From the NCBI RefSeq assembly GCF_900086985.1, contig NZ_LT593974.1:558001-622000 (forward strand): a stretch of 64,000 nucleotides of DNA. The letters run 5' to 3'. Below the pieces are notes generated by a model. That model saw only the letters and a list, made by a program, of their open reading frames with translations. It was not told the origin of the DNA and searched no databases. Of this stretch, positions 36,375 to 64,000 are shown one piece after another. Source of the stretch: Halomonas sp. HL-93 (GTDB lineage Bacteria > Pseudomonadota > Gammaproteobacteria > Pseudomonadales > Halomonadaceae). Position 1 is the first letter of the stretch; each line of letters opens with the position of its first letter. A program made the translations under genes and the position numbers.

Positions 36375-36396
36375 TTCAATCTTAGGAGTTGGTACG

Positions 36397-46773: not shown

Positions 46774-46824
46774 TAATGGGTGCAGCTATCAGGCTGATAA
46801 ATAGTTAAATATCCGCAGTAAAAA

Positions 46825-46854
46825 AGTCCGGCATGTAATGTCGGGCTTTTTTTT
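46825..46854 (+). terminator. Terminator between the two fliD genes
   Basis: AGTCCGGCAT / ATGTCGGGCT stem (two G-U pairs), 3-nt loop, then T8. Confidence 0.88.
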
Positions 46855-46875
46855 GTTCGTTCAGGAGGATTTTCC

Positions 46876-46902
46876 TAAAGTTATCGCGGTTGGTGCCGAT
46901 TA
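46876..46902 (+). promoter_or_regulatory. Sigma-28 (FliA) promoter of second fliD
   Basis: TAAAGTTA, 11 bases, GCCGATTA, 46 bp before the start codon; near-perfect consensus. Confidence 0.85.
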
Positions 46903-46947
46903 ATTAAGCCATCTACCTCAACATAAATTCACTAGGAGCTGTCCAAC

Positions 46948-49397: not shown

Positions 49398-49570
49398 GTT
49401 GTTAAACCTGTCGTTAAATGAGCTTTATAACAGGCTATTAAGCTTGTTTCAGCCTCTTATCGAGCCTAATCGTTAGAATAGCTACTCAAATATGGGTGCA
49501 TTCGCGCCTTTGCTGGCAGCGCAAGCAAAGTAAGCTAGGCACACTGCAAATTTTCCGTGCGAGCTGCTTC

Positions 49571-52500
49571 ATGGTCAACAATACTTCCTCGTCTACTACT
49601 CAAAAACGCAAGCCCCGCATACTTTGGGCTAACCCTTTCTGCTTATTAGATACGTCCAGCGGTGCTAGCATGACTGTGCGCCAAATGTTGTTGCAATTGG
49701 TAGCTCGTGGCTATGAAGTTCAGGTGCTAGGTGCGACTGTTTTCGATAACCCCAAAGGAATGGGGCGGCTGAAAGAACAATTCCCTGATCTCAACGCTCA
49801 TCTGCACCAGCTAGTCGAAGTTGAAGATGGCCCGTTGACGCATCAATTGGTGGTTGGCTGCAGCCACAACCGTAATCATTTTACGACACATGAGGAGGGA
49901 CTTTGGCACAGCCAATACCTCTATTTGCTGGATTCCTTCAAGCCGGATGTTGTGTGGTTCTATGGTGGCCAAACTCTGGATATGTTGATTGCCGATGAAG
50001 CTCGTGACCGCAGTATTCCAGTCGCTTTCTACCTGGCCAACGGCAACTATAAAGCGCCACGCTGGTGTCGTGATGTGGATTTGATCCTTACCGACAGCCA
50101 GGCTACGGCTGATATGTACCGCAATACGACCGGTTTTATCTCCAAGCCGGTGGGCAAGTTCATCGCCCCGGAAAACTTTATTGCCGAGCACCATGAGCGT
50201 AAGCGCCTTGTGTTTGTTAACCCGAGCTGGCAAAAAGGTGCCAGCGTGTTTGTGCAATTGGCAGTAAAGCTGGAGCGGGAGAGGCCCGATATTGAGCTTG
50301 AAGTGGTAGAGGCGCGAGCCGACTGGACAGCCGTGCTGCAGGAGGCTACACGCCGAATGGGGGGGCAGCGTAGCTCATTGAACAATGTGACCGTCACTGC
50401 TAATACCAGCGATATGCGCGGGCCTTACGGTCGGGCCCGAGTAGTGGTTGCTCCTAGCCTATGGTGGGAAAGCTCCGGGCGCGTGCTGGCAGAGGCCATG
50501 CTCAATGGCATTCCAGCGCTAATTACAAATCGTGGTGGTATGCCTGAAATGGTTGGCGATGCCGGGATTACCTTTGACTTCCCAGATGCTTGCTATGAAG
50601 AACCTTATCAACACCTGCTAAGCGACGAGGAGCTTCAACCGCTCGTTGATTCAGTTATCAGTTTTTTCGATGATGAAGTACTTTACAAGGATTATGTGGC
50701 TCGTGCTTGGCAGGTAGGCGAAGACAAGCATCACCTTGATCGTGCTACTGATAGGCTGATCACCGCACTAACACCTTTGGTACGGCAACGCGCCGGTAAC
50801 AAAGATTTTTCAGTCAGCCAGAAAAAACGCCACTGTCAGCGCTTAGCCAGCCGTGCGACCAAACCAGAGTTTAAAGTCGATAAATCTTTACAGCAGTTAG
50901 TTAGCGCCAATGCTGGGATCAAACAGGGCACTGAACCGCAAGCTAACCGTTTGTCGCTTACCAATGATTTTACCTGGCAAGTTAAGGGCAAGGTCATGGT
51001 GCTCGACAACCGAGCCAGTCTGATCAAAAGTGGCCTTGCCGACCAGATGGCAGCAACACAGGCATTCGGCATTGTTGCTTTCGACCCCGCCAGCGAAATA
51101 AAGGATGCCAAACAGTACGAGGGCAGCGAAAACATACAACTGTTTCAGCACGCCTTGTTAGGCGATGGGCAAGCGACAATGCTTCATGCATGTGTCGACC
51201 CAGAAATGACCAGTGTTCTCGCACCGTTACCGGCTGAAAAACTTTCCAAACGCCATCAATTGGCCGCCAAGCCGCTGGCAGAACTGCCTATTAATACTGT
51301 GGCCTTGGATAGCATTGAAGGATTGGGGAACCTCGACTGGTTGATCCTCGATGAACTGAGCGACGCCATGGCGGTGCTGGAGCATGGAAAAAAATCACTC
51401 ACAGAGACGTTGCTAATTCAGTCGCGAGTTGCCTTCCAGCCAACCCATGAATGCCAACCCAGCTTTGCTGAACTACAGCACTGGGCCAGCCGCAATGGAT
51501 TTCGATTCTATCGTTTCCATAATATTCAGCATCACAGCCATTTGCCGGACGAGCTGAACGCACGTGTTCCTTGCGCTACTGAGCAGGAAAGCGCCGATGT
51601 GCTATTCCTTCCTAGCCAAGGCCGGATGGCTGCCCTAAGCGACGAAAGCAAGACCAAGCTTGCTTTTATACTTAGTGCAGGTTTTGCAGCGCATGACATG
51701 GCTTTTGAGTTGATAGCCGACGTTAGCCAGGAGAAAGCGCTAGAGTTTCTAGAAGGACAGTCGTTTTTGCCTAAACTTCCAGAAAAGGCTTCTTCGCCTG
51801 TATCAACCGTTGAAAATTTAAAAGAAGAGGTATCTAAAGCGCCACTTTCAAGAATTAAAGCAAACCATCCTCTACCAGGCCACTTAATTGTATCTCTGGC
51901 CTCTTATACACCACGTTTTGAAAACCTTCACCTAACTTTGCGTAGCTTGTTATTACAGGGCATGAAGCCAGATGTTTTTATTTTGTGGCTTGCCGAGGAA
52001 GAAAAGTCAGAGATTCCTCAGGCTGTATGGCAGTTGGAAGAATATGGCTTGAGTATTCGCTTCTGTGAAGATATTCGCTCTTATAAAAAAATAATCCCCA
52101 CGCTACGCGAATTCCCTAACAGTTTTATTGTTACTGCTGATGATGACCTTTACTATGAGCCCAACTGGCTTAAAGGGTTGTTGGATAGCTGGGGTGGTGA
52201 TTATAAAACAGTCGTTGCACACCGTGCCCATAAAATTCGCCTTGATAATAAAGGTAATCCAAAACCCTATCGCCAATGGAAATGGGAAGTTGGGCCTGAT
52301 GAGCTTTCAGATGGTTTGATTTTTCCAACTAGTGGGGCAGGTGTGTTATATCCCCCGCGAATTTTTCATCAAGATATTACTAATCAAAAGCGGTTTATGG
52401 AGATTTGCTCGACAGCAGATGATATTTGGCTATTCTGGATGGCTTCGCTGAACCGCGCTAAAGTCAAAAAAACAAAATATAATTTTAAGATAATTGAGTG

Positions 52501-53101
52501 GCCTTCCCTAGCTAGCGGCGAAACCGGACTTTGGAAGGAGAATATATACAAGGGAGGCAACGATCTCGCAGTCAAAAAGTTGATGGCTGAATATGGCTTT
52601 CCTGCAAGCAATTTTTTTAAAAAATCAGTTAATAAAAAAGTAAATAATGCTGCTATATTTTATGGCAATGAAGATTTTTTCTATGAGTGCTTCACACCAC
52701 CGATTACTAAGAAGAAAATGAATCGCATGAGTCTTAGCGATATATGCAAAAAGTTTTCAAGGCTAAGTCCTTCGTGTGTCCAAGATGAGCGGCTCAAGCT
52801 TGAAATTATTATTAATGAGGCCGATATAATTTTTCTGGATAAAAAATGTAGCGTTTTGAACGTTTTTAATACTTTAGCTAAAGAAGGTGTAACCTGCACA
52901 TTGATAATTAAGCACTTGCTTAATCAGGTTGGTGGGGATACGTTGCGTGAAATCATTGCCCATGCGAGTGAATTTGGTTTTGGTGTTTCCCATATCCACA
53001 ATATTAAGAGAAAAGAAAAATTGGATTCATATCGTATGCGGTTGAGGTTTTCCGAGCACGCCGAAGAGATTTTAATAGCTTTTACAAATAAAATTAACTG
53101 A
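49571..53101 (+). CDS. Very large multi-domain glycosyltransferase
   Basis: About 1176 residues from ATG 49571; an in-frame GTG at 49496 would add 25 residues, and neither has a good ribosome site. Residues ~15-420: GT4-like domain with KPRILWANPFCLLDTSSGAS, LVFVNPSWQKGASVFVQLA and the donor-site stretch PSLWWESSGRVLAEAMLNG, PALITNRGGMPEM. ~420-760: unrecognised linker. ~775-1000: a second transferase-like domain, LIVSLASYTPRFENLHLTLRS and a TADDDLYYEPNW metal motif. The last ~170 residues are unrecognised. Base composition turns AT-rich near 51780. Position after fliC suggests flagellin glycosylation (inference). Confidence 0.8.
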   Translation: MVNNTSSSTTQKRKPRILWANPFCLLDTSSGASMTVRQMLLQLVARGYEVQVLGATVFDNPKGMGRLKEQFPDLNAHLHQLVEVEDGPLTHQLVVGCSHNRNHFTTHEEGLWHSQYLYLLDSFKPDVVWFYGGQTLDMLIADEARDRSIPVAFYLANGNYKAPRWCRDVDLILTDSQATADMYRNTTGFISKPVGKFIAPENFIAEHHERKRLVFVNPSWQKGASVFVQLAVKLERERPDIELEVVEARADWTAVLQEATRRMGGQRSSLNNVTVTANTSDMRGPYGRARVVVAPSLWWESSGRVLAEAMLNGIPALITNRGGMPEMVGDAGITFDFPDACYEEPYQHLLSDEELQPLVDSVISFFDDEVLYKDYVARAWQVGEDKHHLDRATDRLITALTPLVRQRAGNKDFSVSQKKRHCQRLASRATKPEFKVDKSLQQLVSANAGIKQGTEPQANRLSLTNDFTWQVKGKVMVLDNRASLIKSGLADQMAATQAFGIVAFDPASEIKDAKQYEGSENIQLFQHALLGDGQATMLHACVDPEMTSVLAPLPAEKLSKRHQLAAKPLAELPINTVALDSIEGLGNLDWLILDELSDAMAVLEHGKKSLTETLLIQSRVAFQPTHECQPSFAELQHWASRNGFRFYRFHNIQHHSHLPDELNARVPCATEQESADVLFLPSQGRMAALSDESKTKLAFILSAGFAAHDMAFELIADVSQEKALEFLEGQSFLPKLPEKASSPVSTVENLKEEVSKAPLSRIKANHPLPGHLIVSLASYTPRFENLHLTLRSLLLQGMKPDVFILWLAEEEKSEIPQAVWQLEEYGLSIRFCEDIRSYKKIIPTLREFPNSFIVTADDDLYYEPNWLKGLLDSWGGDYKTVVAHRAHKIRLDNKGNPKPYRQWKWEVGPDELSDGLIFPTSGAGVLYPPRIFHQDITNQKRFMEICSTADDIWLFWMASLNRAKVKKTKYNFKIIEWPSLASGETGLWKENIYKGGNDLAVKKLMAEYGFPASNFFKKSVNKKVNNAAIFYGNEDFFYECFTPPITKKKMNRMSLSDICKKFSRLSPSCVQDERLKLEIIINEADIIFLDKKCSVLNVFNTLAKEGVTCTLIIKHLLNQVGGDTLREIIAHASEFGFGVSHIHNIKRKEKLDSYRMRLRFSEHAEEILIAFTNKIN

Positions 53102-53112
53102 GATATATCCAC

Positions 53113-54063
53113 ATGATATCTAGTTTACCTACTCAAGATAGTGTGAAGAGTGCTTGGGAAAGTGGTCAAGTGAAAGTGACTTGCTTGGTTAGTTGTTATA
53201 ATCATCAAAACTATATTTTTGACTGCCTAAAAGGGGTGATTACACAAAAAACCGATTTTGCTTTTAAAGTTGTTATATATGATGATTTTTCAACGGACGA
53301 TACCCGAAATATTTTAAGTCTCTTTGAAGAGAGATATCCGGATATTATAGATATATACTATGCTGAATTTAATCATTACGGCGTTGCGATAAAAGAAGAG
53401 CATTTAAATCGGCTTGAAGGCGATTATATCGCTTTGTGTGAAGGTGATGATTACTGGATTGATAGACTTAAATTAAAAAAACAGTATGAAGAACTAAAAA
53501 AAAGTAGTGCCTTTTTTTGCGTTCATCCTGCTGTTATTTTTCTTGAAGAATCGAGTCTAGAAGACGTTTTTTGTTATTATGGAAACGAAAAAGTTGTTCT
53601 GCCTCAAAGTCTTGTTTTCGGGTTGAAAAATCAGTTTGCTCCAACTGCATCGTATTTTATGAAGCTAGAAAAATATTTTGATTATATTGATCTACGAAAA
53701 AAGCTTAATGGGGGGCCTGGTGATTTTTTCATGGAAGTTTCGGCTTCTGATAAAGGAATCTCCTATTTGCCTGATATTATGTCATCTTATCGGAGAGGTG
53801 GCGCTGGATCTTATAGTAAAAAACAAGCTGGTTTAACAGTAGATGATGTTCATAGTGAATTAAAGCGGTGGTATGGCAATCTAGATGTTTTGTTAGCATA
53901 TAGGCCTCACTTAGAAAAATTTATTATAGTAAAGAAGAGCTTGGTAGAAATTGACTGTTTACTAAGAATGCATCAAAAGACTAGTCATCAAGGTAAAAGA
54001 AATGAATATGTGGATAAAGTAAATAATTTGTTAAAAGCTCTTGGGCCACTTACATATTATTAG
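53113..54063 (+). CDS. GT2-family glycosyltransferase
   Basis: 316 residues. GT-A fold signatures: VTCLVSCYNHQNYIFDCLKGV, VVIYDDFSTDDTRNIL, and the D-x-D-like metal motif in ALCEGDDYWIDRLKL; then a variable acceptor region. Cytoplasmic or membrane-associated sugar transferase. Starts 11 bp after the large transferase, hence the same operon, and shares its AT-rich composition, a sign of horizontal acquisition. Sugar donor and acceptor unknown. Confidence 0.88.
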   Translation: MISSLPTQDSVKSAWESGQVKVTCLVSCYNHQNYIFDCLKGVITQKTDFAFKVVIYDDFSTDDTRNILSLFEERYPDIIDIYYAEFNHYGVAIKEEHLNRLEGDYIALCEGDDYWIDRLKLKKQYEELKKSSAFFCVHPAVIFLEESSLEDVFCYYGNEKVVLPQSLVFGLKNQFAPTASYFMKLEKYFDYIDLRKKLNGGPGDFFMEVSASDKGISYLPDIMSSYRRGGAGSYSKKQAGLTVDDVHSELKRWYGNLDVLLAYRPHLEKFIIVKKSLVEIDCLLRMHQKTSHQGKRNEYVDKVNNLLKALGPLTYY

Positions 54064-54224: not shown

Positions 54225-54423
54225 CTACGCAGCTATTGCAGGGTGTGCTCGGGGCGCCACATAGCCTAGTGACTGATGTGGCCGCTCTTCGTTGTAGTAC
54301 CACATCCAGCGCCCTAGAACCGCTCTAGCTTGGCCCAACGACTCAAATCGATGCTGCCAGATGCACTCCTCCTTCAATGATCGGAAGAAGCGCTCGACAA
54401 GCCCGTTCTGCTCCGGTGTATAG
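54225..54423 (-). pseudogene. IS3 orfB, C-terminal fragment
   Basis: Encodes YTPEQNGLVERFFRSLKEE, then RWMWYYNEERPHQSLGY: the C-terminal rve integrase block with the third catalytic acid (Glu in LKEE region). Cut at its N-terminal side exactly at the IS66 end at 54424. The matching N-terminal fragment is at 56645-57069; roughly 50 residues between them, including the second catalytic Asp region, are missing. Confidence 0.85.
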
Positions 54424-54503
54424 GTAAGCGCGCCATAAACCCCATCTACCCACATTAACGTTGTCTGATCACACTGATGGTCTCTTTTGCTTTGGAGATC
54501 ATC

Positions 54504-54715
54504 ATGAGCCGCGAACTCAATCCCACTCAAGCGTTTTGGTTAGGGCATCTGTCTTATGCTGCCGCGTTGCAGATGCCGTTAATGCGTATGCTGAAGCGCA
54601 AGCCGTGACACTGGCCGACCTGATGGCGTGGGAAAATCGGTTAATCGTGCAGGGCTTTCCCGTGCCACCGCGTTGTCGTCCCGCCCGGTTTGTCGCGGTG
54701 GAGGTGGTCGCATGA
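54504..54715 (+). pseudogene. IS66 tnpA, frameshifted
   Basis: Starts MSRELNPTQAFWLGHL in one frame, but the rest (VADAVNAYAEAQAVTLADL, then MAWENRLIVQGFPVPP) is in another frame, switching near 54555. The intact protein is the small accessory protein of IS66 elements, role unclear. One-base indel and shortening make this copy broken. End overlaps tnpB by ATGA. Confidence 0.7.
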
Positions 54716-55068
54716 TTCGTCCAGGCACTGACCTAAAGGTTTACCTGTGCCGAGAGCCCGTGGATATGCGTAAGCAAATCGATGGCTTGGCACTGCTGGT
54801 TCAGGAAGCCATGGCCTTGAACCCGTTCGATCAAGCGCTGTTCGTGTTCGGTAATCGCCAGCGGGATAAAGTGAAACTGCTGTTCTGGGAACGTAGCGGT
54901 TTTGTGGTGTGGTACAAGCGCCTGGAGCGTGAGCGGTTTAAATGGCCAACGCACCTTAATGGCGAGACCGTGACGTTAACCGGCCAAGAGCTTAACTGGC
55001 TGCTGGATGGCTATGATTTAAAGGCCATGAAGCCTCACAAAGCACTGAATTTTCAGCGAGTTGGCTAA
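54712..55068 (+). CDS. tnpB: IS66 accessory protein TnpB
   Basis: 118 residues from ATG 54712, intact. Typical TnpB (IS66 Orf2) text: LCREPVDMRKQIDGLALLVQ, DQALFVFGNRQRDKVKLLFWER (in part), GFVVWYKRLERERFKWP, LLDGYDLKAMKPHKAL. Required with TnpC for transposition in IS66 elements, not an RNA-guided nuclease. Confidence 0.93.
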   Translation: MIRPGTDLKVYLCREPVDMRKQIDGLALLVQEAMALNPFDQALFVFGNRQRDKVKLLFWERSGFVVWYKRLERERFKWPTHLNGETVTLTGQELNWLLDGYDLKAMKPHKALNFQRVG

Positions 55069-55113
55069 CAAAATCGCCTCCTATTTTGGCGGCGCTTTTG
55101 TATACTACGCGGT

Positions 55114-56607
55114 ATGAAAAACACGGCCTCTTCCTCGACGACGGTTACCCAGCTTGAGCACAAGCTGGCCGCTGCTGACGCTGAAAATGCGCGGCTGTTG
55201 GCGTTGATGGAAAAAAGGAAGCGCAGTGGGAAGCCACCAAACAGTCGCTATTTGAACAGTTCCGGCTTGCCCTGGAGCGTCAGTTCGGCCCTTCCACCGA
55301 GAAGTACCGTGTCGACCAGCGGGATCTGCTTATCAATGAAGCGGAAGTGTCGGTTGACGAGGAAGATGCATCGGAGAGCACCACGGCTGATGACGCGACG
55401 AGCGAGACCGCCACGCCTACTAAACGTCGCACGCGCGGCGGGCGTGTTGCGCTACCGCCGGAGCTGCCGCGTATCGAGGTCGCCCATGAACTGCCCGTCG
55501 ATGCTCGCCACTGCCACGATGACGACACCGCACTGAAGGTCATCGATGAAGAGGTCAGCGAGGAGCTGCATGTGGTACCCGCCCGGATCGAGGTGATCCG
55601 TAATGTGCGACGCAAATATGCCTGCCCGCTATGCGAAGAGGGCGTCAACACCGCCCCGGCACCCGCCAAACTGTTACCCAAGAGTAATGCCAGCGCCACG
55701 CTGCTCGCCTATATCGCGACCGCTAAATACCAGGACGCGCTACCGCTTTATCGGCAAAGCCAGGTTTTTGCCCGCCATGGCGCCGAGATCTCTCGTAACA
55801 CCTTGGCGCGCTGGATGGTGCAGGCGGGAGAACGCATCACCCCGTTGATCGACACGTTGCGCCAACACCTCTTAAACGCCCCGCTGATCCACATGGATGA
55901 GACGACGCTCCAGGTGAATCAAGAAGTGGATCGTGCCGCCAGTGCCACCTCGTATATGTGGGTGCAGCGCGGTGGTCCGCCGGGACAACAAGTCGTTCTG
56001 TTCGACTACGCCGCCAGCCGCGCCGGGCGTGTGCCCGTTGACCTGCTGGGCGCATGCCCGGCGTAAGTTCGTCGAGGCCCAGAAGGTGCAGCCCAAAGGA
56101 AAAACCGGTAAAGCGGACTGGGCGCTGAACCAGATCCGTAAGCTGTACGGCGTGGAAAAACAGGCCAAAGCGTTTGAACCCGAGGCGCGTCACGCGCTGC
56201 GTGACCAGAAGAGCCGCCCGTTAATCGATCAACTCCACACCTGGCTCGACAAGTCACTGGCCCAGGTGTTGCCCAAAAGTGCGCTGGGTAAAGCCTTGCA
56301 CTACCTGGATAACCAGTGGCCCCGGCTGACCCGGTTCCTGAAGGATGGCTTGATCCCGCTGGACAACAATCCGGCAGAGAACGCTATCCGCCCGTTCGTG
56401 GTGGGGCGTAAAAACTGGCTGTTCAGCCACACCCCGAGCGGTGCTCACGCCAGCGCGGCGATCTACAGCCTGATCGAAACCGCCAAAGCCAATGGCCTCT
56501 CGCCTTACGACTACTTGCAGTACGTCTTTGCGAAACTGCCCGCCCTCGGCGATGATGAGCTCCACAAGCTGCTGCCCTGGCAGTGGAAAGAGACATTACC
56601 GGTCTAA
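55114..56607 (+). pseudogene. IS66 transposase tnpC, inactivated
   Basis: Three frame segments. MKNTASSSTTVTQLEHKL to the A7 run near 55210, where the frame shifts; continuing frame gives EAQWEATKQSLFEQFRLALE, the zinc-ribbon-like YACPLCEEG, and LIHMDETTLQV with the first catalytic Asp. Near 56040 the reading jumps from AGRVPVDLL straight to CWAHARRKF in another frame: the family's QTDGYAGY stretch with the second catalytic Asp is deleted. The last part has NNPAENAIRPFVVGRKNW with the catalytic Glu. Not functional. Confidence 0.88.
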
Positions 56608-56644
56608 GCGACGCCTGCATAGATGGGGTTAGTGGAGCGCTTAC

Positions 56645-57069
56645 TTGCTGCTGCCATTGTCCGACAATCGCCAACCGAGAATTTCTCGCGTGCAGCAATC
56701 GATGATCACCGCCAGGCTGCCCCGTCGGTCCTTACCGCACCAAACGTGCGTCAGATCGGTGGCCCAACGCTCATCCGGTCGTGTGGTCACTGAAGGCAGA
56801 CTTCGGGCACGCGGCCGGAAGCCCTGCGGTCGCTTGCGTACCTGCCAGTTCTTCAGCTGCAGGATGCGCTGGATCGGTTTGCGGTTCTCACCCAGCACAC
56901 ACGCCAGACGACGATAGCCATAGGTGGGGAATCGCTCCAGAGCCAGCTTTACCCGAGCGGCCAGATCGGTATTGATCACCCGGCGACGCGGTTTGGGACG
57001 ATAGTACAGCGTCCGCCGGGGGAGCCCCAGCCACTGGCATAGCTTGACGAGTGATACCACGTGGCCCAT
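56645..57069 (-). pseudogene. IS3 orfB, N-terminal fragment
   Basis: MGHVVSLVKLCQWLGLPRRTL, YGYRRLACVLGENRK and DERWATDLTHVWC (first catalytic Asp), ending at DCCTREILGWRLSDNGSS, where the IS66 end begins. C-terminal remainder is at 54225-54423. In-frame stop upstream separates it from orfA in the reading I checked. Confidence 0.85.
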
Positions 57070-57095
57070 CTGGGCCAGTTCCGCCTACGACGACC

Positions 57096-57407
57096 TTACG
57101 AGTTCTCGTCCTCGTCGAGCAGGCGTTTGAACTTTTTTAATGCATAGATCTGCAGGTGAGCCTCGCCCAGCGCCTCCTTGGTTTCCCGCAGATCGGACTC
57201 GTACTGCTCGCGGATATCCTTGAGCCGGGCTCGGAACCCGTTCTCCATGTCGCGTTGGGCCTCTTCGATCCAGCCCTCGACTTCCGAGACGGTGAGGTCA
57301 TGCTGTCGAGCCACCTCTGCGACGGTGGTCTTGCCCTTGAAGATATCCATGACCACAGCGGCTTTGCGCTTGGCGGTCCAGCGTTTGACTGAGGGTTCGT
57401 TGCTCAT
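57096..57407 (-). CDS. IS3-family transposase orfA
   Basis: 103 residues: helix-turn-helix part VKRWTAKRKAAVVMDIFKG and VAEVARQHDLTVSEVEGW, then a Leu-zipper-like C-terminus (ALGEAHLQIYALKKFKRLL). DNA-binding subunit normally joined to OrfB. AGGAGGATGAG precedes the ATG. Intact, but the element's orfB is not. Confidence 0.9.
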   Translation of the reverse strand: MSNEPSVKRWTAKRKAAVVMDIFKGKTTVAEVARQHDLTVSEVEGWIEEAQRDMENGFRARLKDIREQYESDLRETKEALGEAHLQIYALKKFKRLLDEDENS

Positions 57408-57507: not shown

Positions 57508-58518
57508 TCATACAGTAGCTATTGGTGTGACGGGGGAGCCCACAGCCCCCGTCAGCCTTAATGGAGGAGCGGTCAACATAAAACGTGAACGTCCGTTTGC
57601 TTTAAGCCAGGCAGCTAGCTCTGCAAGGTGCCAAAGTTCACCTAAGTGAATACCTAGTTTAAAAAGGCAGTGCTCATGCAATGGCAGGGCAGTTGTACAA
57701 CAATCCGGTACTGCCTTGCCAACATTCTCGACTGCTAGGTTGTCTGAGACAATTGCGGCAACCCCGCTGTCTATGACCCACTGAAGTAACTTCTCATCCC
57801 TGCCATCCAGAACGGCGCAAGCTTCCTTGAGCGAGGCATCCGGTTTTTTGTTCATGCTAAGGATTAACTGATCCAGGCCTGTCCAGAGGCAGAGGATGTC
57901 ACCCGGCTCGACCGTCACCTTGTCCTTTTCCATTATGACCATAAGATCGTTGTAGCCAATTTCCTTTCTTGGGAATTCTCCAGCGTAAGAGTGTAAATCA
58001 ATCATTACTCCTCGTCCTTGTACGCCCTGTTTGGCCATGTTCTCAATTCCAAGAGCATTGGCACCAACACCCGAATCATCCATTTTGATGTCTTCGCCAG
58101 CACGGAAGCCGTTGTAATAGACAGGGATGGCGTGGCCATCGCCGTTTACATCAAACACTGAGCCGCGATGAGCAAGGCTGTCCCACTGGGTTGAATACTG
58201 GGTATGCAACAGAACAGCATCATCTGCCGCAACATCCGTTAACTTTGGATCTTTTTTTCGCCATTCGTAGTTGTAATAGGGCTCATCATTTCGGATGACG
58301 GGACGCAATTTCGGTGGGTGTCTCACCGGGCTCAGCAAATTACCCCCCGGGTAATCCAGGGGCAGGCTCAGGCAAAAGGTTTTTCCAACCTTAACTTCCG
58401 CGACACCCTGAAGCACCTTATTGTGATCAAGAAGGTTCAGGCGGCCCAACTGATCGTTCTCTCCCCAGTCACCCCAGTTTGCCCCTTCTGGCCTGGCTTT
58501 CCAGCGTGGATTAGTCAT
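57508..58518 (-). CDS. Cyclase-family (PF04199) metal-dependent hydrolase
   Basis: 336 residues, the long form of the cyclase/kynurenine-formamidase fold. N-terminal WGDWGENDQLGRLNLLD, central YSTQWDSLAHRGSVFD (the STQWD-x-LAH variant of the HxGTHxDxPxH metal site), GVMIDLHSYAG and a C-terminal PLHEHCLFKLGIHLGELW. Hydrolyses cyclic imides, lactones or amides in known relatives. Last gene of the minus-strand operon; its start overlaps the upstream lyase gene by 8 bp. The IS3 element lies just beyond its stop, so the original downstream sequence may have been lost. Confidence 0.85.
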   Translation of the reverse strand: MTNPRWKARPEGANWGDWGENDQLGRLNLLDHNKVLQGVAEVKVGKTFCLSLPLDYPGGNLLSPVRHPPKLRPVIRNDEPYYNYEWRKKDPKLTDVAADDAVLLHTQYSTQWDSLAHRGSVFDVNGDGHAIPVYYNGFRAGEDIKMDDSGVGANALGIENMAKQGVQGRGVMIDLHSYAGEFPRKEIGYNDLMVIMEKDKVTVEPGDILCLWTGLDQLILSMNKKPDASLKEACAVLDGRDEKLLQWVIDSGVAAIVSDNLAVENVGKAVPDCCTTALPLHEHCLFKLGIHLGELWHLAELAAWLKANGRSRFMLTAPPLRLTGAVGSPVTPIATV

Positions 58519-59863
58519 GATTTACCCTTCCCAAAACCTTTGTAATCATTTTTTCCGTGGACCCTGTGTAGTTTGCAGGGTTTATAAGCCGATCTACATC
58601 GTCAACAGAAAGGTGCTGACGAATCCGGTCATCCGTCAGCAAGGCATCACGCAAGGTAATGCCTTGGTCCCATGCTTTACCAGCTGAGCTGTATACCAGA
58701 TCATGTGCCTGGTTACGGCCAATAATGGGAGCAAGGCCCATCATAACGGCCTCAGCCATGAGCAACCCGCCACCCAAGTGAAGATTTTCCAGCATCTTCG
58801 CCCGATCTACCGTGAGCCCACTGAGCATGGTGATTGAATGCTGTAAGCTTCCGGAGAGCAATACAAAAGCTTCTGGTATCACCATCCATTCGAGGGGCAT
58901 TGCGGCCACTGCCCTTTCATGCTCCTGAATCATGGCAGTCAATTGCGAGCCAACGTGCTCCCGGAGCCGGTTACCGATAGCCATGATTATCGGGCACGCC
59001 ACCGGGTTCCTTTTCTGAGGCATGGTACTGCTTCCGCCCTTGCCCGGCGTGTATGGCTCGCGAACCTCATCCACTTCAGAACGCATCAGCGTGGCAACCT
59101 CGGTCGCAATTTTGGCGAGCGTTCCACCCACCATCGCCAACCAGAATACCGCCTCTGCCCAGCCATCCCGTGCGGTATGCCAGGAAATAGGCGGCTCTTC
59201 AAGCTCCAGTTCCCGGGACAGCACTTCCAGGACATCGGTACCACGGTCCCCCAGAGTAGCCAGGGTGCCGACAGCACCACCGAACTGACAAACCAGTGCG
59301 CGTCGCTTTACGTCGGGAAGCCGTTCGCGGTGCCTGAGCAGCTCATCGAGCCAGACAGCAGCCTTGAAGCCGAAGGTAACTGGCGCAGCCTGCTGCTGAA
59401 ATGTCCGGCCGGCCATGACGGTTGCCCTGTGATCTTCCGCAAGTTTCGCGACAGCATCAATCACTTCGTCCAGCTGCCGGGCCAGTATGTCGAAAGCTTC
59501 TTTCATCTGCAGAACCATGCCCGTATCGACAATATCCTGAGTCGTCGCTCCCCAGTGGACCCAGCGGGCGCTGTCTTTATCACAGGCGTTCGCCAGTTGA
59601 TGCACAAGAGGGAGTATTGGAAACCCAACCTTCTGGTATTCCTCAGACATGGCCGCAATATCGAGGTTTTCGACTTTGGCCGCCATCGTTATTGCTTCTG
59701 CTGCTTCTTCCGGAATCAGTCCCAGCCGCGCCTGTGCGCGAGCCAAGCCGGACTCTACGTCCAGCCATGCCGCGAAGCGGCTTTTATCCGAGAAGATGTC
59801 GTGCACTACAGAGTCGCGAAAAGTGCTGCCGAAGTAGGCGGAATCAACGATAGATGAAGTCAT
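58511..59863 (-). CDS. PcaB / adenylosuccinate-lyase-like fumarase-superfamily enzyme
   Basis: 450 residues. Superfamily regions: VHWGATTQDIVDTG (region 2, catalytic His/Thr area), TFQQQAAPVTFGFKAA, and the signature GKGGSSTMPQKRNP with the catalytic Ser loop. Resembles 3-carboxymuconate cycloisomerase, but no protocatechuate genes are near; a lyase releasing fumarate from a succinyl adduct, or a cycloisomerase, are both possible. Next gene upstream encodes an ATP-grasp ligase, a pairing reminiscent of ligase-lyase amination (as in purine synthesis), which is speculative. Confidence 0.85.
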   Translation of the reverse strand: MTSSIVDSAYFGSTFRDSVVHDIFSDKSRFAAWLDVESGLARAQARLGLIPEEAAEAITMAAKVENLDIAAMSEEYQKVGFPILPLVHQLANACDKDSARWVHWGATTQDIVDTGMVLQMKEAFDILARQLDEVIDAVAKLAEDHRATVMAGRTFQQQAAPVTFGFKAAVWLDELLRHRERLPDVKRRALVCQFGGAVGTLATLGDRGTDVLEVLSRELELEEPPISWHTARDGWAEAVFWLAMVGGTLAKIATEVATLMRSEVDEVREPYTPGKGGSSTMPQKRNPVACPIIMAIGNRLREHVGSQLTAMIQEHERAVAAMPLEWMVIPEAFVLLSGSLQHSITMLSGLTVDRAKMLENLHLGGGLLMAEAVMMGLAPIIGRNQAHDLVYSSAGKAWDQGITLRDALLTDDRIRQHLSVDDVDRLINPANYTGSTEKMITKVLGRVNHD

Positions 59864-59918
59864 AATCAGAAGTTTCTTTTAGAAAGGTCGGAATTTGCCA
59901 GGTATGCAGCTAAAACGA

Positions 59919-61163
59919 TCAGTAGATTTCTCGTCGGAAAATGGATTGCCCATGGATATCAATGACATCTATATTTTCCAGTGCATCGCGAGTAATTGTT
60001 TCAATTTCTTCAGGTTTCCCTGATCGCACGATAATGGCACCAACGCGGTTGTTACTGGAAAGTTCGCTGCCAATAGCCATTCCCGCTGTTTTATAGGTAT
60101 TCACACATACAACGTTACTATTCTGATGAACAATTTCTGGGTTGTATACAATTTTTCCAAACGCACCCTGGCTTGCATAGAGGAAGGTTTCAGCATAGGT
60201 TTCCTGGCATTGGTCAACTAATACTGTGGGAGGCACCTCACCAAGAAACGAATTCACCGAAATCTCAATAATGTCAACGCCTGTCATTGCTTCGATAATG
60301 GTGCAGCTTTCCCCACCACCAAAACGTGCAGCAAATTCAATTACACTTATCTTGTCGTCGTGAACGATTGCCTGAATCATCAACGGGCAACTTGTGATCC
60401 CCAGTGACGTTGCAATACTGGATGCCACACGCTGTATTTCCTGCTTAACACTATCAGAGACTTTGGCAGGCCATGTGCACCCATATATCTGCTGAGCCGA
60501 ATCCTTCTCTGCGGGAATTTTTCGACGCTGTTTCGTCATCAAAACAGACGCCCTTTGCGCTTGTACAAAGCAATCAATGCCGATCTCTACACCTTCTATA
60601 AATTCTTCAACTATGGCTACCCCCGATCGGCTCAGAGCCAGGGCATCCGCTACCGCAGACTTGAGTTCGTCTAAGCGATCAATACGCCTGACACCCTTGG
60701 AGCTATTGCTATCGGAAGGCTTTACGATCAATGGAAAGCAAAGATTTTCCGGCACATTCTCAACCGGGACCTGAACAGAGATGAAACGAGAAGTTGGAAT
60801 TCCATTCGCCAACATGAACTTTTTCATCAACGATTTATTAGTGACGACGTTGGCTGTTTCAGTACTGTAGGGGTGAGGAAGTCCAAGCTGCTCGGAAACG
60901 CTACATGCTATTACATTGGCTTGGTCTACACAGGAGCTAATGACCAGAGACGCTTCCCTTGTTCGGGCTATTTGCAGAACTTTTTCAACATCCAGTGTAC
61001 TCGCGCGGATGTGCTCATCCGCGAGGTCAGCGGCGTAGGGGCGCTCATGGTAGTCGATAAGGAGAGTTCGATATCCACGTGCTTTAAGATTCTCTATTAG
61101 TCTTCTGTGGGGAAACGTACCCCCCAGAACAACGGCTACATCTTGGTCCATTCGTCTACTCAC
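59919..61163 (-). CDS. ATP-grasp carboxylate ligase
   Basis: 414 residues (GTG at 61163; ATG at 61151 is an alternative, no clear ribosome site for either). N-terminal pre-ATP-grasp Rossmann part VAVVLGGTFPHRRLIENLK; ATP-grasp domain at ~115-300 with FPLIVKPSDSNSSKGV (Lys and Gly-rich loop), VEEFIEGVEIGIDCF, and ISVIEFAARFGGGE (metal-binding Glu, Arg). A C-terminal ~90-residue domain. Joins a carboxylate to an amine or thiol via acyl phosphate. Similar ligases occur in natural-product and surface-sugar clusters. Substrates unknown. Confidence 0.87.
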   Translation of the reverse strand: MSRRMDQDVAVVLGGTFPHRRLIENLKARGYRTLLIDYHERPYAADLADEHIRASTLDVEKVLQIARTREASLVISSCVDQANVIACSVSEQLGLPHPYSTETANVVTNKSLMKKFMLANGIPTSRFISVQVPVENVPENLCFPLIVKPSDSNSSKGVRRIDRLDELKSAVADALALSRSGVAIVEEFIEGVEIGIDCFVQAQRASVLMTKQRRKIPAEKDSAQQIYGCTWPAKVSDSVKQEIQRVASSIATSLGITSCPLMIQAIVHDDKISVIEFAARFGGGESCTIIEAMTGVDIIEISVNSFLGEVPPTVLVDQCQETYAETFLYASQGAFGKIVYNPEIVHQNSNVVCVNTYKTAGMAIGSELSSNNRVGAIIVRSGKPEEIETITRDALENIDVIDIHGQSIFRREIY

Positions 61164-61182
61164 AAAGCTATGAATATTCGGA

Positions 61183-62319
61183 TCAACAAGTCATATCTTT
61201 GATGAAACGATTTTTTTCGTCATTGGTATCAACGCGAAGAACAGGCATATCACTACGCATCCCTTTGCGAACGCGAACCTCAAGGAACGCCGGCCCTAAG
61301 CTGGAAGTAAGTTGCAAGAAAGTGTTTTTAAGTTCTTCACGGCCTGCCACGAAACTGCTAGCTGTCTGGTAGCCGGCGCCTTTACCTATTGCTGTTAGGT
61401 CTGCTGCATAGCCTACACTGTTCTGGCCCCCAACAGACTCATGAGCTCCGTTGTTGAGTATTACTTGTAACAAATTGGGTAGCTCAAGGTGGGCGGTAAC
61501 AGGCATGCTTCCCATATGCATAAGTACAGCTGCATCACCATCAAGACAGATCACTAGCCGTTCAGGTTTAGCTGCCGCAATTCCAGAGGCGATGGAAAGC
61601 GTGTGCCCCATTGCACCAACATTGAGAAAATCGCAATTATGTGGCTGGTCGAGCGACTCGCGAATAGCATGAAGTTCCCGAGTAATTCTGCCGGTAGAAG
61701 CAATAAAAATGGCGTTGTCGGGCGCATTTTTAAGCAGCTCACGTATTGCATCTTCGCGGCTCATTGCATATTGCTGCTCGTCAGCGTCAAAACCGGCCTT
61801 TTCTTTTCGGGCCAGCACGTTCTTGCGAACAAGAAGTGCAGTAGGCTGGTTCAATTCCCGGGCACGAGAAACCGCCCACTCGATTGCATCTGATACAGTT
61901 TCCTCATCTTCATCCAGGACTTTGAAGGGGATATTCAGTGCATCAAGCAGAACCGGTGATAATTCCCCCTGTCGCTGGTGCTGAGGCCAATCACCGCTGC
62001 CCGGCTCACCGCGCCAACCAATCATCATCACAAGCGGGATGGAGTAAACGCATTTGTCAGTAAGAGAAATCAAGGGGTTCATGGCGTTGCCCATACCGGA
62101 GTTTTGCATATAAACCAACGGTACGGTGTTGGTGGCAAGGTGATAGCCTGCGGCTAGAGCAATTGCATTTCCCTCGTTCGCTGCAAGAACATGTCTGTTC
62201 TTATCCCATGAGGTATCGAGTCCAAGGCAGAAATCATTCAACAGGGTGTCAGGCACACCACTAATAAATTCGACACCATTTTGTTTAAGAACTTGATAGA
62301 CATTTTTAAGATCGATCAT
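61183..62319 (-). CDS. TPP-dependent decarboxylase, phosphonopyruvate/sulfopyruvate decarboxylase-like
   Basis: 378 residues, both halves of the fold in one chain. N-terminal PYR part: GVEFISGVPDTLLNDFC and the catalytic Glu in ANEGNAIALAAGYHLAT; C-terminal PP part with the TPP/Mg motif CLDGDAAVLMHMGSMPV ... VILNNGAHES (GD-x~25-NN), and VGAMGHTLSIASGIA. Size and text match phosphonopyruvate decarboxylase (Ppd/AepY). No PEP mutase is in the window, so sulfopyruvate or another 3-substituted pyruvate is equally open. Between the ATP-grasp and MmgE/PrpD genes, 19 bp from each. Confidence 0.85.
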   Translation of the reverse strand: MIDLKNVYQVLKQNGVEFISGVPDTLLNDFCLGLDTSWDKNRHVLAANEGNAIALAAGYHLATNTVPLVYMQNSGMGNAMNPLISLTDKCVYSIPLVMMIGWRGEPGSGDWPQHQRQGELSPVLLDALNIPFKVLDEDEETVSDAIEWAVSRARELNQPTALLVRKNVLARKEKAGFDADEQQYAMSREDAIRELLKNAPDNAIFIASTGRITRELHAIRESLDQPHNCDFLNVGAMGHTLSIASGIAAAKPERLVICLDGDAAVLMHMGSMPVTAHLELPNLLQVILNNGAHESVGGQNSVGYAADLTAIGKGAGYQTASSFVAGREELKNTFLQLTSSLGPAFLEVRVRKGMRSDMPVLRVDTNDEKNRFIKDMTC

Positions 62320-62338
62320 GAAAAGCCTTTAGAAGTAC

Positions 62339-63694
62339 TTAATTTTGTAGTAAGCGGTGGAACGCTTTGAGGTCTTGAGGCAATTGCCATACTTCATTTT
62401 TCAGCAAATCACTTTTCTCTACAGCTACACCTCCATAACCGGCGAGATTCGTAAATTTTTCCTCTAGTTCCGCATCTGTAAGCGGATTTTCGGGCTCTCC
62501 TTTCGGGAAGGTCACTAACTCCCTATATACGGTGCCATCATTTGTTTCAAGCCGCAGCTCAGCTGCCCGTTGATCAGGGACACGATCCGTATACTTTTGA
62601 TCTGCTGAGATCGTCACCTTTCGTGCCAAGGCACGAATTTCGGCGTCGTCAACGGTCTCCTGAGTAAATTCATTGATACCTGCAGAGCCCGTTTTTATTG
62701 CCAGGGCCACACTAAAGGGAACACTCATTCGCGCAGCCGAAATATCTGAAACTTCCTTGTGATCATGGCGTCCTGCCAGGCCGTGGTAGGTGGTGATATG
62801 TATGTTCTTTATATCCACAGGAAGCACATGGGCCTTCTCCAGTATACGAATCGTACCTTCAATTGACGGATGAGCATGTCGGCATGCTGCGTAAGGCTTT
62901 ACGTATACGCTGTGAATCCAGTAGCCGCTCGGGCCGTTTGCAAGAATTAACTCCTCCCTGTATTCATCTGTCGTCATTCTCAGAAATCCGGTGTCTCCGT
63001 TTAATGCGTCCTCCGGAGCACTAAAGCCAGCACGCGCCATGATCGCAGAGTGGACAGCTAAAACAGCCGCTCGCCCTACACTGTAGGGTTTTAACTCAGA
63101 TCCTTTGTCGACAACTTTAAGGCTACCAGTTGCAGACACTGACGCTGCCGCCAAAGCATTCTCCATTTCCTGAGCATTGAACCCCAGCATCGCAGCAATG
63201 CCCATGGTTGCGCCAATGGCTCCACAAGTGGCCGTCGGGTGATAGCCTCGCCTGTAGTGTGTTGGCTGCATGGCGCTGGCTAACCGAAGGGCCGCATCGT
63301 AGCCCACCAACACCCCACGAATAAAGTCGTTCCCGGTCACGTTTAACTTTTCAGTCATTGGAATTAGGGCTGAAAATATAGGAGCGCCTGGGTGAATCAT
63401 GCCGAAGCGAACACCATCATCCATTTCGGCAACATGGGAACTCAATCCGTTTATCAGTGCGGCGGTTTCTATACCGATTTTAACCGAGCTGCCAATAACG
63501 CCGACACCATCCTTATTTTCGCCCGCCATGCCAATGATTTTGCCAACCCGCGGCTCAAGAACCCTGGCACCGGCCAGTGCAGCACCCAGGTAATCAAGTA
63601 GGCACCGTTTAACCTGATGCCGGGCGGCTTCATCCGGCTCTTGAATCATGATCCGCTGCAAGTCTGCGACTAACCGTTGAGTCAAATTACTCAT
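62339..63694 (-). CDS. MmgE/PrpD-family protein
   Basis: 451 residues, the family norm. Seen: N-terminal RCLLDYLGAALAGARV, MDDGVRFGMIHPGAPIFSALI, HPTATCGAIGATMGIAAMLG, LKPYSVGRAAVLAVHSA and KPYAACRHAHPSIEGT, the standard MmgE/PrpD blocks. Relatives dehydrate 2-methylcitrate, decarboxylate cis-aconitate or isomerise itaconate-type acids. Here it could act on a tricarboxylate or phosphono analogue made by the operon. 19 bp before the decarboxylase gene. Confidence 0.88.
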   Translation of the reverse strand: MSNLTQRLVADLQRIMIQEPDEAARHQVKRCLLDYLGAALAGARVLEPRVGKIIGMAGENKDGVGVIGSSVKIGIETAALINGLSSHVAEMDDGVRFGMIHPGAPIFSALIPMTEKLNVTGNDFIRGVLVGYDAALRLASAMQPTHYRRGYHPTATCGAIGATMGIAAMLGFNAQEMENALAAASVSATGSLKVVDKGSELKPYSVGRAAVLAVHSAIMARAGFSAPEDALNGDTGFLRMTTDEYREELILANGPSGYWIHSVYVKPYAACRHAHPSIEGTIRILEKAHVLPVDIKNIHITTYHGLAGRHDHKEVSDISAARMSVPFSVALAIKTGSAGINEFTQETVDDAEIRALARKVTISADQKYTDRVPDQRAAELRLETNDGTVYRELVTFPKGEPENPLTDAELEEKFTNLAGYGGVAVEKSDLLKNEVWQLPQDLKAFHRLLQN

Positions 63695-63730
63695 TATTTA
63701 TGCTTGAACTGTCGTGGAGTGAAGTAGGTT

Positions 63731-64000
63731 TCAGCCTGTCGTTCTGAAGTACGGAGGAGCCTCCGACCTTGCATGGTGCCAAGCCGACTCAAAAGCGTCG
63801 AGTACCGCTGGAGGAAGAGCGCCACGCTTGAGAATATCAAGGTTTTCCTGCAACTGACTGAGGCTTGAAGCACCAATGAGAAGGCCATCGCCCTTTTGAG
63901 AGTCCAGGGCTGAGTGTTCAGATAACCATCTTAATGCGCCTTCCACCATTGTAATGCCCGTATCATGGCACGCATCCTGGAGCACCTGCAGCGCATTGAA
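63731..64000 (-). CDS. Aldo/keto reductase, C-terminal part (cut by window edge)
   Basis: About 89 residues visible; frame is open to base 64000. GITMVEGALRWLSEHS, then GDGLLIGASSLSQLQENLDIL with the NADPH-pocket GASS-x-Q-x-x-N motif, as in the aflatoxin-aldehyde-reductase (AKR7) group. The catalytic Tyr/Lys lie outside. Upstream gene of the operon, 36 bp before the MmgE/PrpD start. Confidence 0.8.
   Translation of the reverse strand, partial: FNALQVLQDACHDTGITMVEGALRWLSEHSALDSQKGDGLLIGASSLSQLQENLDILKRGALPPAVLDAFESAWHHARSEAPPYFRTTG

Follow-up and report, generated by a model that had tools for sequence, protein, structure and literature searches.

A modular gene cassette of Halomonas sp. HL-93 that probably makes an amino sugar with an unusual acid

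What might an aldo-keto reductase, an MmgE/PrpD protein, a phosphonopyruvate decarboxylase-like enzyme, an ATP-grasp protein, a PcaB-like lyase and a cyclase be doing together in one operon? This question is raised by the last six genes of the stretch of Halomonas sp. HL-93 DNA analysed here (64,000 nucleotides, hereafter the window). According to the original prediction, they constitute a six-gene operon for a phosphonate, sulfonate or amino-acid-like product, belonging to no described pathway. We found this interpretation to be partly supported: the operon probably makes an amino sugar with an unusual acid. The gene set as such is not described in the titles or abstract openings of the open-licence PMC papers searched, and in this respect the original prediction stands.

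The operon and its surroundings

Recomputation matched exactly the six minus-strand open reading frames and their spacings (36, 19, 19 and 55 bp and one 8-bp overlap), and the domain assignments made earlier hold (PF04199, Lyase_1 with ADSL_C, ATP-grasp_4, the TPP enzyme of TIGR03297, MmgE/PrpD, and aldo-keto reductase). The features of the window are as follows.

48457..49338, plus strand: flagellin (Flagellin_N 150.6 bits, Flagellin_C 105.6 bits)
49496..53101, plus strand: glycosyltransferase protein of 1201 aa (GT1201), adjoining flagellin (Glyco_trans_1_4, 48.4 bits)
53113..54063, plus strand: family-2 glycosyltransferase (GT2; PF00535, 52.8 bits)
54228..57404, no single strand: nested insertion elements bordering the operon (PF05717, PF03050, rve, rve_3, HTH_Tnp_1)
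57508..58518, minus strand: Cyc, cyclase-family protein, last gene of the operon (PF04199, 45.1 bits)
58511..59863, minus strand: PcaB, lyase of the fumarase/aspartase superfamily (Lyase_1, 158 bits; best solved chains 3c8t and Tad1)
59919..61163, minus strand: ATPg, candidate ATP-grasp carboxylate-amine ligase (PF13535, 63.9 bits)
61183..62319, minus strand: Ppd, TPP-dependent 2-oxoacid decarboxylase of a cassette-specific group (TIGR03297, 393.6 bits)
62339..63694, minus strand: PrpD, (de)hydratase or epimerase of the MmgE/PrpD family (PF03972 and PF19305)
63731..64000, minus strand: AKR, aldo-keto reductase, 3' part of the gene (PF00248, 171.9 bits for the complete gene)

The genes do look like one operon, but its length was underestimated: the window edge cuts it, the AKR gene extends to position 7681 of L003 (window coordinate 64681), and five more genes lie beyond, their spacings ranging between an overlap of 4 bp and a gap of 52 bp. 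The six genes of the window are thus the downstream part of an operon of 11 co-directed, tightly spaced genes in the order rmlB, rmlA, DegT aminotransferase, a C-C lyase (CCL, a strong member of PF15617 with 367 bits), an orphan TIM barrel (ORP), AKR, PrpD, Ppd, ATPg, PcaB and Cyc. The best model for DegT is dTDP-4-dehydro-6-deoxyglucose aminotransferase (261 bits, under the cut-off of 650). As to composition, the AT-richness noticed earlier is real in comparison with positions 1-54000 of the window (GC 0.496 in the operon against 0.559) and with L004 beyond the operon (0.570); however, GC falls even further, to 0.453, between 48000 and 54000, and the operon is therefore not the AT-richest part. 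The insertion-element border is also real, the IS66 genes (54628-56604) lying inside a split element (54228-57404) with rve and HTH_Tnp domains.

The five upstream genes, together with the nearby flagellin, point to a glycan. Besides flagellin, two FliD genes, GT1201 and GT2 are located near the operon, and with flagellin, FliD and a glycosyltransferase of 1201 aa so close by, the locus has the look of an island for flagellin glycosylation. In Vreelandella nigrificans (L027) flagellin (83% identity) and ORP are 10 kb apart on one contig, and a relative of GT1201 (81% identity over 765 aa) lies between them. However, flagellin is not the general target of the cassette, since it is situated about 122 kb from ORP in Billgrantia and on other contigs in a Vibrio with the cassette, and since the window flagellin, used as a query, found a flagellin-like stretch only in L013 among the best 80 of 369 loci.

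The closest known parallel (PMC3927599) is provided by the viosamine islands of Pseudomonas syringae, where VioA and the 1,173-aa VioT put N-acyl viosamine on flagellin, and by the P. aeruginosa PAK island: a sugar aminotransferase, acyl genes and a glycosyltransferase of about 1,200 aa serve flagellin there. Here, DegT is present in the operon and flagellin and the 1201-aa glycosyltransferase are nearby, a parallel in gene content only. The viosamine acyl group, in the same account (PMC3927599), comes from the fatty-acid-like set ACP, VioS, VioR and VioB, while in our locus their place is taken by CCL, ORP, PrpD, Ppd/AKR, PcaB/Cyc and ATP-grasp. An ATP-grasp_4 protein is part of the sfm flagellin-modification cluster of Shewanella (PMC3765264).

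A conserved core with mutually exclusive tails and hydratases

The recurrence of the gene set in other genomes was confirmed: the same set of enzymes occurs in remotely related bacteria of many phyla, from the gut as well as from the sea, with interchangeable end pieces. The locus counts of this section were obtained by tblastn with bit-score thresholds of our own choice (at several loci, shadow ORFs hid genes from ORF calling) and refer to the best 80 of 369 ORP relatives, so that they describe the close relatives of ORP. Among these 80 loci, CCL is present in 79 and PrpD in 73, and in all 80 the core, tail and hydratase genes lie on one strand. Three kinds of tail occur, namely Ppd (mostly with AKR), a D-2-hydroxyacid dehydrogenase (DHGDH) and Ldh_2; exactly one of them was found in 74/80 loci of this best set, two in one locus, and none in five. 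The hydratase module is in turn either the Fe-S fumarase FumA/B (61 of the best 80) or PcaB with Cyc (12, the same 12 loci for each of the two genes); no locus has both modules, and in seven neither was found. All six combinations of three tails and two hydratase modules are present. The exchange can be seen in the slot 3' of ATPg, which holds PcaB and Cyc in the window and in L053, and FumB and FumA in L024 and L043. Of the sugar genes, DegT is present in 40 of the best 80 loci, rmlB in 15 and rmlA in 13. An ATP-grasp protein at least 33% identical to that of the window is encoded in only 34 of the 80, including 6 of the 40 Ppd loci, a point against the reading proposed below.

Six of the loci in which no hydratase was found (L005, L023, L044, L074, L076 and L077) and three of those in which no tail was found (L042, L044 and L047) are on contigs shorter than 8 kb. 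The absence of the hydratase in L039 and of the tail in L019 and L040 counts against the rule, as these contigs are longer. In L040, alone among the 80 loci, an NADP-isocitrate dehydrogenase gene scoring over its equivalog cut-off is located between PrpD and ORP; it would fit a TCA-like logic, but as a single case that adjoins an ATPase-like gene it is given little weight. In L019, the gene directly before PrpD encodes a sugar transferase.

The Fe-S cluster cysteines C65, C191 and C274 are retained in 57/57 FumA sequences; the two FumA proteins tested were both over the cut-off of TIGR00722, and one FumB was under that of TIGR00723. The cassette has a three-by-two modular design, with swapped tails and hydratases, to which is added in ORP a protein family that matches no Pfam or NCBIfam model.

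A possible route to an acyl-modified amino sugar

The chances are about even, in our view, that the operon supplies the flagellin glycan of its host with a nucleotide-activated amino sugar bearing an acyl modification. The products of rmlA, rmlB and DegT would provide a dTDP-amino-6-deoxysugar of the Qui4N type. The core (CCL, ORP, PrpD and the hydratase module) could build an unusual 2-oxoacid according to a methylcitrate-cycle-like logic, in which C-C bond formation would be followed by dehydration by PrpD, rehydration and, finally, a lyase or rearrangement reaction of the TIM barrel ORP. In other loci the rehydration might be accomplished by FumAB; here PcaB may form a lactone and Cyc open it, as the chemistry of the two families would suggest. 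Ppd would then decarboxylate the 2-oxoacid and AKR reduce the resulting aldehyde, while in other lineages the 2-oxoacid would instead be reduced to a D- or L-2-hydroxyacid. ATP-grasp is proposed to couple the acid with the amino sugar; it is a difficulty for this reading that Ppd and AKR together would remove the carboxylate of the 2-oxoacid, so that the ligase needs a second carboxylate in their product. The adjoining glycosyltransferases could place the modified sugar on flagellin. The gene content, the conserved core, the mutual exclusion of tails and of hydratases and the closeness to flagellin are observations, while every reaction, substrate and product of this pathway is inferred. Amide-linked malic and 2-hydroxyglutaric acids do occur in bacterial polysaccharides (PMC3210612).

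Like the methylcitrate cycle (PrpC, PrpD, aconitase, PrpB), the proposed route would involve the same kinds of steps, and PrpD is homologous in both; unlike in that cycle, PrpC, aconitase and PrpB would be replaced by other enzymes, and our PrpD is far under the cut-offs of the 2-methylcitrate dehydratase equivalogs (43.4 vs 950, 42.9 vs 575 and 36.7 vs 458 bits); the likeness is an analogy only. That a new methylcitrate-like 2-oxoacid route serves glycans is put forward tentatively, with the odds somewhat against it. If the reading of the operon given above is right, marine and gut bacteria should carry a family of related acids on their flagella and polysaccharides, and a group of enzymes now called phosphonopyruvate decarboxylase would act on a different substrate. 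The cassette would also be a natural experiment on how lineages that tolerate oxygen substitute two enzymes for an oxygen-labile Fe-S hydratase.

As for the possibility that the cassette remodels the sugar itself to a branched or acidic one, with no acyl group involved and with ATP-grasp doing something else, it agrees with the repeated occurrence of the cassette among sugar-nucleotide and glycosyltransferase genes. We nevertheless regard it as unlikely: small carboxylic acids are the substrates of the families concerned (PrpD, fumarase, citrate lyase, 2-hydroxyacid dehydrogenase), and the operon combines an aminotransferase with a candidate carboxylate-amine ligase (its match to LAL_C2 is under the cut-off, and its solved matches include L-amino acid ligases).

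The decarboxylase, the lyase and the orphan barrel

The phosphonate or sulfonate product of the original prediction would imply that Ppd acts on phosphonopyruvate or sulfopyruvate and that AKR yields hydroxyethylphosphonate or isethionate, the C-P or C-S bond being formed by an unrecognised enzyme. Ppd does pass the cut-off of TIGR03297 (312.5 bits), and the best model for the two Ldh_2 tails tested is L-sulfolactate dehydrogenase (303 and 277 bits), although under the cut-off of 500. However, the sequence past 64000 yielded the five operon genes and no PEP mutase (TIGR02320) over the cut-off, nor did the rest of the genome (best 123 vs 319.55 bits). Among the 29 of 80 cassette genomes searched for this enzyme, four had it over the cut-off, six had weak matches and 19 had none. 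In three of the four positive genomes it is encoded on contigs that differ in length from that of the cassette; in the fourth (L013), PEP mutase and its own linked Ppd are on the cassette contig, about 17 kb from ORP, which would suit a phosphonate, but the cassette there has a Ppd of its own in addition. ComA phosphosulfolactate synthase (PF02679) had no match in the Halomonas genome, while the controls B. subtilis and M. jannaschii matched.

The phylogeny of Ppd points in the same direction. In a midpoint-rooted tree of 50 rows, 40 cassette Ppds (the window and 39 of the 40 Ppd loci) are separated by one branch with a support of 100/99 from nine PEP-mutase-linked Ppds, five of which carry a long-branch warning; L102, with no aepX in view, is counted separately, and three further loci did not pass our filters, namely L106, L108 and L018, whose Ppd is truncated at the end of its contig. 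Arg211 is present in 40/40 cassette copies, and Lys occupies this place in 7/9 linked Ppds. The group nearest to the cassette Ppds in the tree is that of the PEP-mutase-linked Ppds of gut bacteria, a point in favor of the phosphonate. The branch in which PepM is followed by Ppd and a reductase, as in aepX-aepY-reductase of Segatella copri (L101), resembles our operon in the homologous Ppd with a subsequent reductase and in the polysaccharide setting, and differs in that our genome has no PEP mutase over the cut-off and that the cassette Ppds form their own group. As to sulfopyruvate, all three tail families have members acting on it (ComC, ComDE and SlcC), but they also serve many other 2-oxoacids; ComA has no match here, and the sulfopyruvate and sulfolactate models were matched only below their cut-offs. 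PrpD and the hydratase module, moreover, would have no role in the known phosphonate route, and pepM is described as a reliable indicator that phosphonates are produced (PMC8931226). With no PEP mutase over the cut-off in the genome of the host or in 25 of the 29 cassette genomes and with the cassette Ppds separate, the canonical phosphonate or sulfonate route is disfavoured, and the version with an unrecognised bond-forming enzyme appears improbable. More improbable still is that ORP, alone or with CCL, makes a 3-substituted anionic pyruvate (phosphono- or sulfopyruvate) in the absence of PEP mutase and ComA, to be turned into glycan substituents by the three tails, whose families include members that use sulfopyruvate or phosphonopyruvate; the new methylcitrate-like route is more likely than this. 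Should ORP do so, the C-P or C-S bonds in surface glycans of bacteria from the gut and the sea would have originated twice.

The other product suggested earlier, an amine installed via aspartate, is opposed by PcaB. In 13/13 cassette copies its GRT(F/H) motif contains Phe in the place of the His of GRTHxQ, which we take to be the catalytic His expected of succinyl C-N lyases. The other three superfamily members of the same genome have His (L111 and L112) or Leu (L110) there, and of the solved relatives Tad1 has Asn, yet 3c8t has His. PcaB comes close to the 3-carboxymuconate cycloisomerase model TIGR02426 but is under its equivalog cut-off (341 vs 355.75 bits). Against the lactone idea, two presumed metal-binding His of the cyclase family are replaced by Gln in Cyc. 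The nearest solved relatives of PrpD are IDS-epimerase and Bacillus IRG1. With IDS-epimerase nearest to PrpD and with 3c8t and Tad1 nearest to PcaB, one could think of an operon that breaks down a tricarboxylic or iminodisuccinate-like acid and is present in a sugar region by chance; this is hardly probable, given the Phe of PcaB, the continuity with rmlB, rmlA and DegT, the sugar-gene linkage repeated across loci, and the domain annotation of the 11 genes, among which there is neither a transporter nor a regulator. Least probable of all is a biosynthetic relative of the Ter operons, to which PF15617 C-C lyases and ATP-grasp proteins are linked, making a nucleoside-like metabolite: it is favoured by the PF15617 score of CCL and an ATPgrasp_Ter match at the cut-off (29.2 vs 29.1 bits), but six other Pfam models fit the ATP-grasp protein better, and there is no Ter-type gene among the annotated operon genes or (by eye) the recurrent neighbour clusters.

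Coming back to the acyl-modified amino sugar, its core includes ORP, of which 17 aligned relatives share 73-86% identity with the copy of the window; E37, R63, D148, D200 and K249 are retained in 13/13 aligned rows. The predicted fold is a generic TIM barrel of middling confidence (mean pLDDT 79.7, low in loops). Fold searches returned many TIM barrels with tied Z scores (CutC, pyruvate kinase, class II aldolases, RuBisCO-like), and hence no reaction can be read from them; a lyase or rearrangement reaction would be our guess. By eye, the motifs DGG..R.E and HTEN resemble those of DRE-TIM metallolyases (HMGL/IPMS); hhalign of ORP against the four PF00682 domains of the same genome gave a probability of 0.2%, with shallow profiles. 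The name U32 peptidase, given to two distant relatives, was rejected for ORP, as PF01136 had no matches in the Halomonas genome and matched 8/14 controls. Near home the cassette-type ORP is rare: the window's copy is the only one among the 151 family genomes, where a single relative at 36% identity was seen besides, and among 369 genomes of the class, where relatives at 48% and 37% and two partial matches were seen besides.

The neighbour genes of the distant ORP relatives (34-48% identity) are unrelated and share no common thread. In Thermomicrobium, mandelate-racemase-like and MBL hydrolase genes adjoin the relative, and on an Enterobacter plasmid it is next to genes of iron-containing redox enzymes, with a similar-looking one, by eye, in L113. 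The plasmid records L089 and L090 carry no annotation. Inspection by eye also revealed, beside the relative, asparagine-synthetase- and ATP-grasp-like genes (L092) and, in L093, a gene resembling DapA.

A longer operon near a flagellin gene

The original prediction described an uncharacterised six-gene operon at the end of the window. The six genes are indeed present, and recomputation returned the spacing that had been given for them, but the number is too low: the window edge falls inside the operon, leaving five of the six genes whole and the aldo/keto reductase gene (AKR) cut, and past position 64000 of the same genome the operon runs on upstream with the remainder of AKR and the following genes:

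upstream of AKR, minus strand: ORP, an orphan protein of 297 aa without Pfam or NCBIfam match
beyond 64000, minus strand: CCL, a PF15617 C-C bond lyase
beyond 64000, minus strand: DegT-type sugar aminotransferase
beyond 64000, minus strand: rmlA and rmlB

The reading frames of all 11 operon genes are open and lie on the minus strand; where neighbours overlap they do so by no more than 8 bp, and gaps do not exceed 55 bp. The operon has a GC content of 0.496 versus 0.559 for window positions 1-54000. On the other side of nested insertion elements, the window encodes flagellin, FliD (two genes) and two glycosyltransferases, one a 1201-aa protein and the other of family 2. The fliD genes stand side by side directly ahead of the flagellin gene (45442-48318), and between the flagellin region and the operon IS66-type genes (54628-56604) sit within another transposase gene set (54228-57404). 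Two beta-lactamase-fold proteins (42018-43052 and 36361-37494) match PF00144 and PF13354.

A modular cassette in other genomes

A search for ORP relatives in a collection with one genome per species gave 369 places; the best 80 of these were kept, compared by tblastn with the operon proteins and recurrent neighbours, and tallied. The gene set recurs in other genomes, and all counts below refer to these best 80 of 369 loci. CCL is found in 79 and the MmgE/PrpD protein (PrpD) in 73 of the 80, and the core, tail and hydratase genes share one strand in every locus (80/80). Three tails substitute for one another: the Ppd-like decarboxylase (40 loci, 37 with AKR alongside), a D-2-hydroxyacid dehydrogenase (21) and an Ldh_2 dehydrogenase (13). 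Two tails occur in one locus, and none was found by tblastn in five of the 80, including L044, which is cut short and has AKR alone. As to the hydratase module, Fe-S fumarase subunits (FumAB) are encoded in 61 loci and the PcaB-like lyase with the PF04199 cyclase (PcaB and Cyc) in 12, never both (0/80), while seven of the 80 gave no tblastn match to either. Where core, tail and module are complete, all six tail-hydratase combinations are seen (26, 15, 8, 6, 4 and 2 loci). The slot directly after the ATP-grasp gene holds FumB-FumA in loci L024 and L043 and PcaB-Cyc in the window operon and locus L053. Among the papers listed by our literature searches, none describes this cassette, which is recurrent and modular and widens a known kind of system, that in which flagellin and surface glycans carry acylated amino sugars.

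Two loci have unusual contents. L084 (6624-13422) carries two ORP copies and a D-2-hydroxyacid dehydrogenase plus Ldh_2, with no CCL found within the stretch examined; in L040, whose cassette lacks a recognised tail, PrpD and ORP are separated by an NADP-isocitrate dehydrogenase gene (8747-9958) that scores above its equivalog cut-off.

Decarboxylase and hydratase modules

The window Ppd scores above the TIGR03297 cut-off, and a phosphonate or sulfonate route had been proposed, with a search for PEP mutase past 64000 and a Ppd phylogeny as checks. Both speak against that route, which we now regard as unlikely. Profile searches of the window genome found no PEP mutase above cut-off and no ComA; pepM is regarded, in an excerpt of PMC8931226, as a robust marker for phosphonate production. 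Among 29 cassette genomes searched, four have a PEP mutase above cut-off, in three of them on a contig that, judged by its length, is not the cassette's; in the fourth (locus L013) PEP mutase and its own Ppd lie on the cassette contig, about 17 kb from ORP. As linked Ppds the tree included those of the four genomes encoded no more than 3 kb from PEP mutase, and another five taken from plasmid records in which aepX is visible. In this midpoint-rooted tree, to be read with a long-branch warning, the 40 cassette Ppds and the linked ones fall on opposite sides of a branch with support 100/99. Near the TGR motif, Arg211 is present in 40/40 cassette Ppds versus Lys in 7/9 linked ones. The cassette Ppd is thus related to the linked ones, but its substrate probably differs. 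L013 and L100/L125 are parts of one contig, on which the cassette is accompanied by a flagellin-like stretch and by PEP mutase and its linked Ppd, so that two Ppd kinds lie close together.

As for the hydratase modules, records not titled MAG comprise eight PcaB-Cyc loci (Mongoliibacter, Pararhodonellum, Vreelandella, Billgrantia, Pleomorphovibrio, Pelagicoccus, Verrucomicrobiaceae E54 and Vibrio), whose hosts we take to be aerobic or facultative, and six FumAB loci (two Mediterraneibacter, two named Clostridium, Desulfobacter and Ruminococcus), presumably all of strict anaerobes. The invariant cysteines C65, C191 and C274 are kept in 57/57 FumA proteins, in keeping with an oxygen-sensitive Fe-S hydratase. 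However, the remaining four PcaB-Cyc loci are MAGs, some perhaps digester-derived, and the separation of hosts by oxygen tolerance is thus a tendency at best.

The closest solved relatives of PcaB are 3c8t and the trans-aconitate decarboxylase Tad1. At the GRT motif position, all 13 cassette PcaB proteins have Phe, versus His in 3c8t and in L111 and L112 (superfamily members of the window genome that we read as ArgH- and PurB-like), Leu in another member from this genome, L110, and Asn in Tad1; with Phe in place of His, PcaB is unlikely to be an adenylosuccinate-type C-N lyase. If PcaB carried out a cycloisomerase-type step and Cyc then opened the lactone, the net result would be addition of water, the reaction type of FumAB, which would explain the exchange of modules. 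Cyc has Gln at two positions that we assume to be metal-binding His in its family.

Proposed working and surface glycans

Our guess at the sequence of steps is as follows. RmlA, RmlB and DegT, by what is known of their families, would make a dTDP-amino-6-deoxysugar from dTDP-glucose. Following the model of the methylcitrate cycle, CCL would join two small acids, PrpD would dehydrate the product, PcaB-Cyc (elsewhere FumAB) would rehydrate it, and ORP might cleave or rearrange it to a 2-oxoacid. The latter would become an alcohol via Ppd and AKR or, elsewhere, a 2-hydroxyacid via a dehydrogenase; the acid would be coupled to the amino sugar by the ATP-grasp protein and attached by the glycosyltransferases near flagellin. 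The scheme has two weak points: since Ppd takes off one carboxylate, a second must stay for the ATP-grasp protein, and an ATP-grasp at least 33% identical to that of the window occurs by tblastn in 34 of the best 80 of 369 loci but only 6/40 Ppd loci.

The operon's rmlA is 82% identical in the V. nigrificans locus and 81% in that of B. campisalis; the flagellin, sought in three genomes, is 83% and 73% identical, respectively. The source of the window is probably a member of the Halomonadaceae. In V. nigrificans, flagellin gene, ORP and an 81% relative of the 1201-aa glycosyltransferase all lie within about 12 kb; in Billgrantia ORP and flagellin share a contig about 122 kb apart, and in the Vibrio genome they are on separate contigs. 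ORP of L013 is about 9 kb away from a stretch that resembles flagellin (45% over 130 aa). In other loci the neighbours, named by eye, are sugar-transferase-, flippase- and glycosyltransferase-like (that of L019 was confirmed as Bac_transf), so the cassette probably serves varied surface glycans.

A similar arrangement is found in P. syringae, where flagellin receives N-acyl viosamine through VioA, VioT (1,173 aa) and acyl genes, according to a portion of PMC3927599. The Shewanella sfm flagellin-modification cluster includes an ATP-grasp_4 protein (PMC3765264, in part), and amide-linked malic and 2-hydroxyglutaric acids, known from marine bacterial polysaccharides (passages of PMC3210612), would suit 2-hydroxyacid-making tails with an ATP-grasp ligase.

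The AlphaFold model of ORP is a TIM barrel (mean pLDDT 79.7), and fold searches with it gave generic matches. Seventeen aligned relatives are 73-86% identical to the operon's ORP, and E37, R63, D148, K171, D200, E235 and K249, among others, are common to it and its 34-48% relatives. Two distant relatives are labelled 'U32 family peptidase', a name we rejected for ORP, to which PF01136 has no match. Distant relatives (35-48%) in L087, L088, L092, L093 and L113 lie amid unrelated genes.
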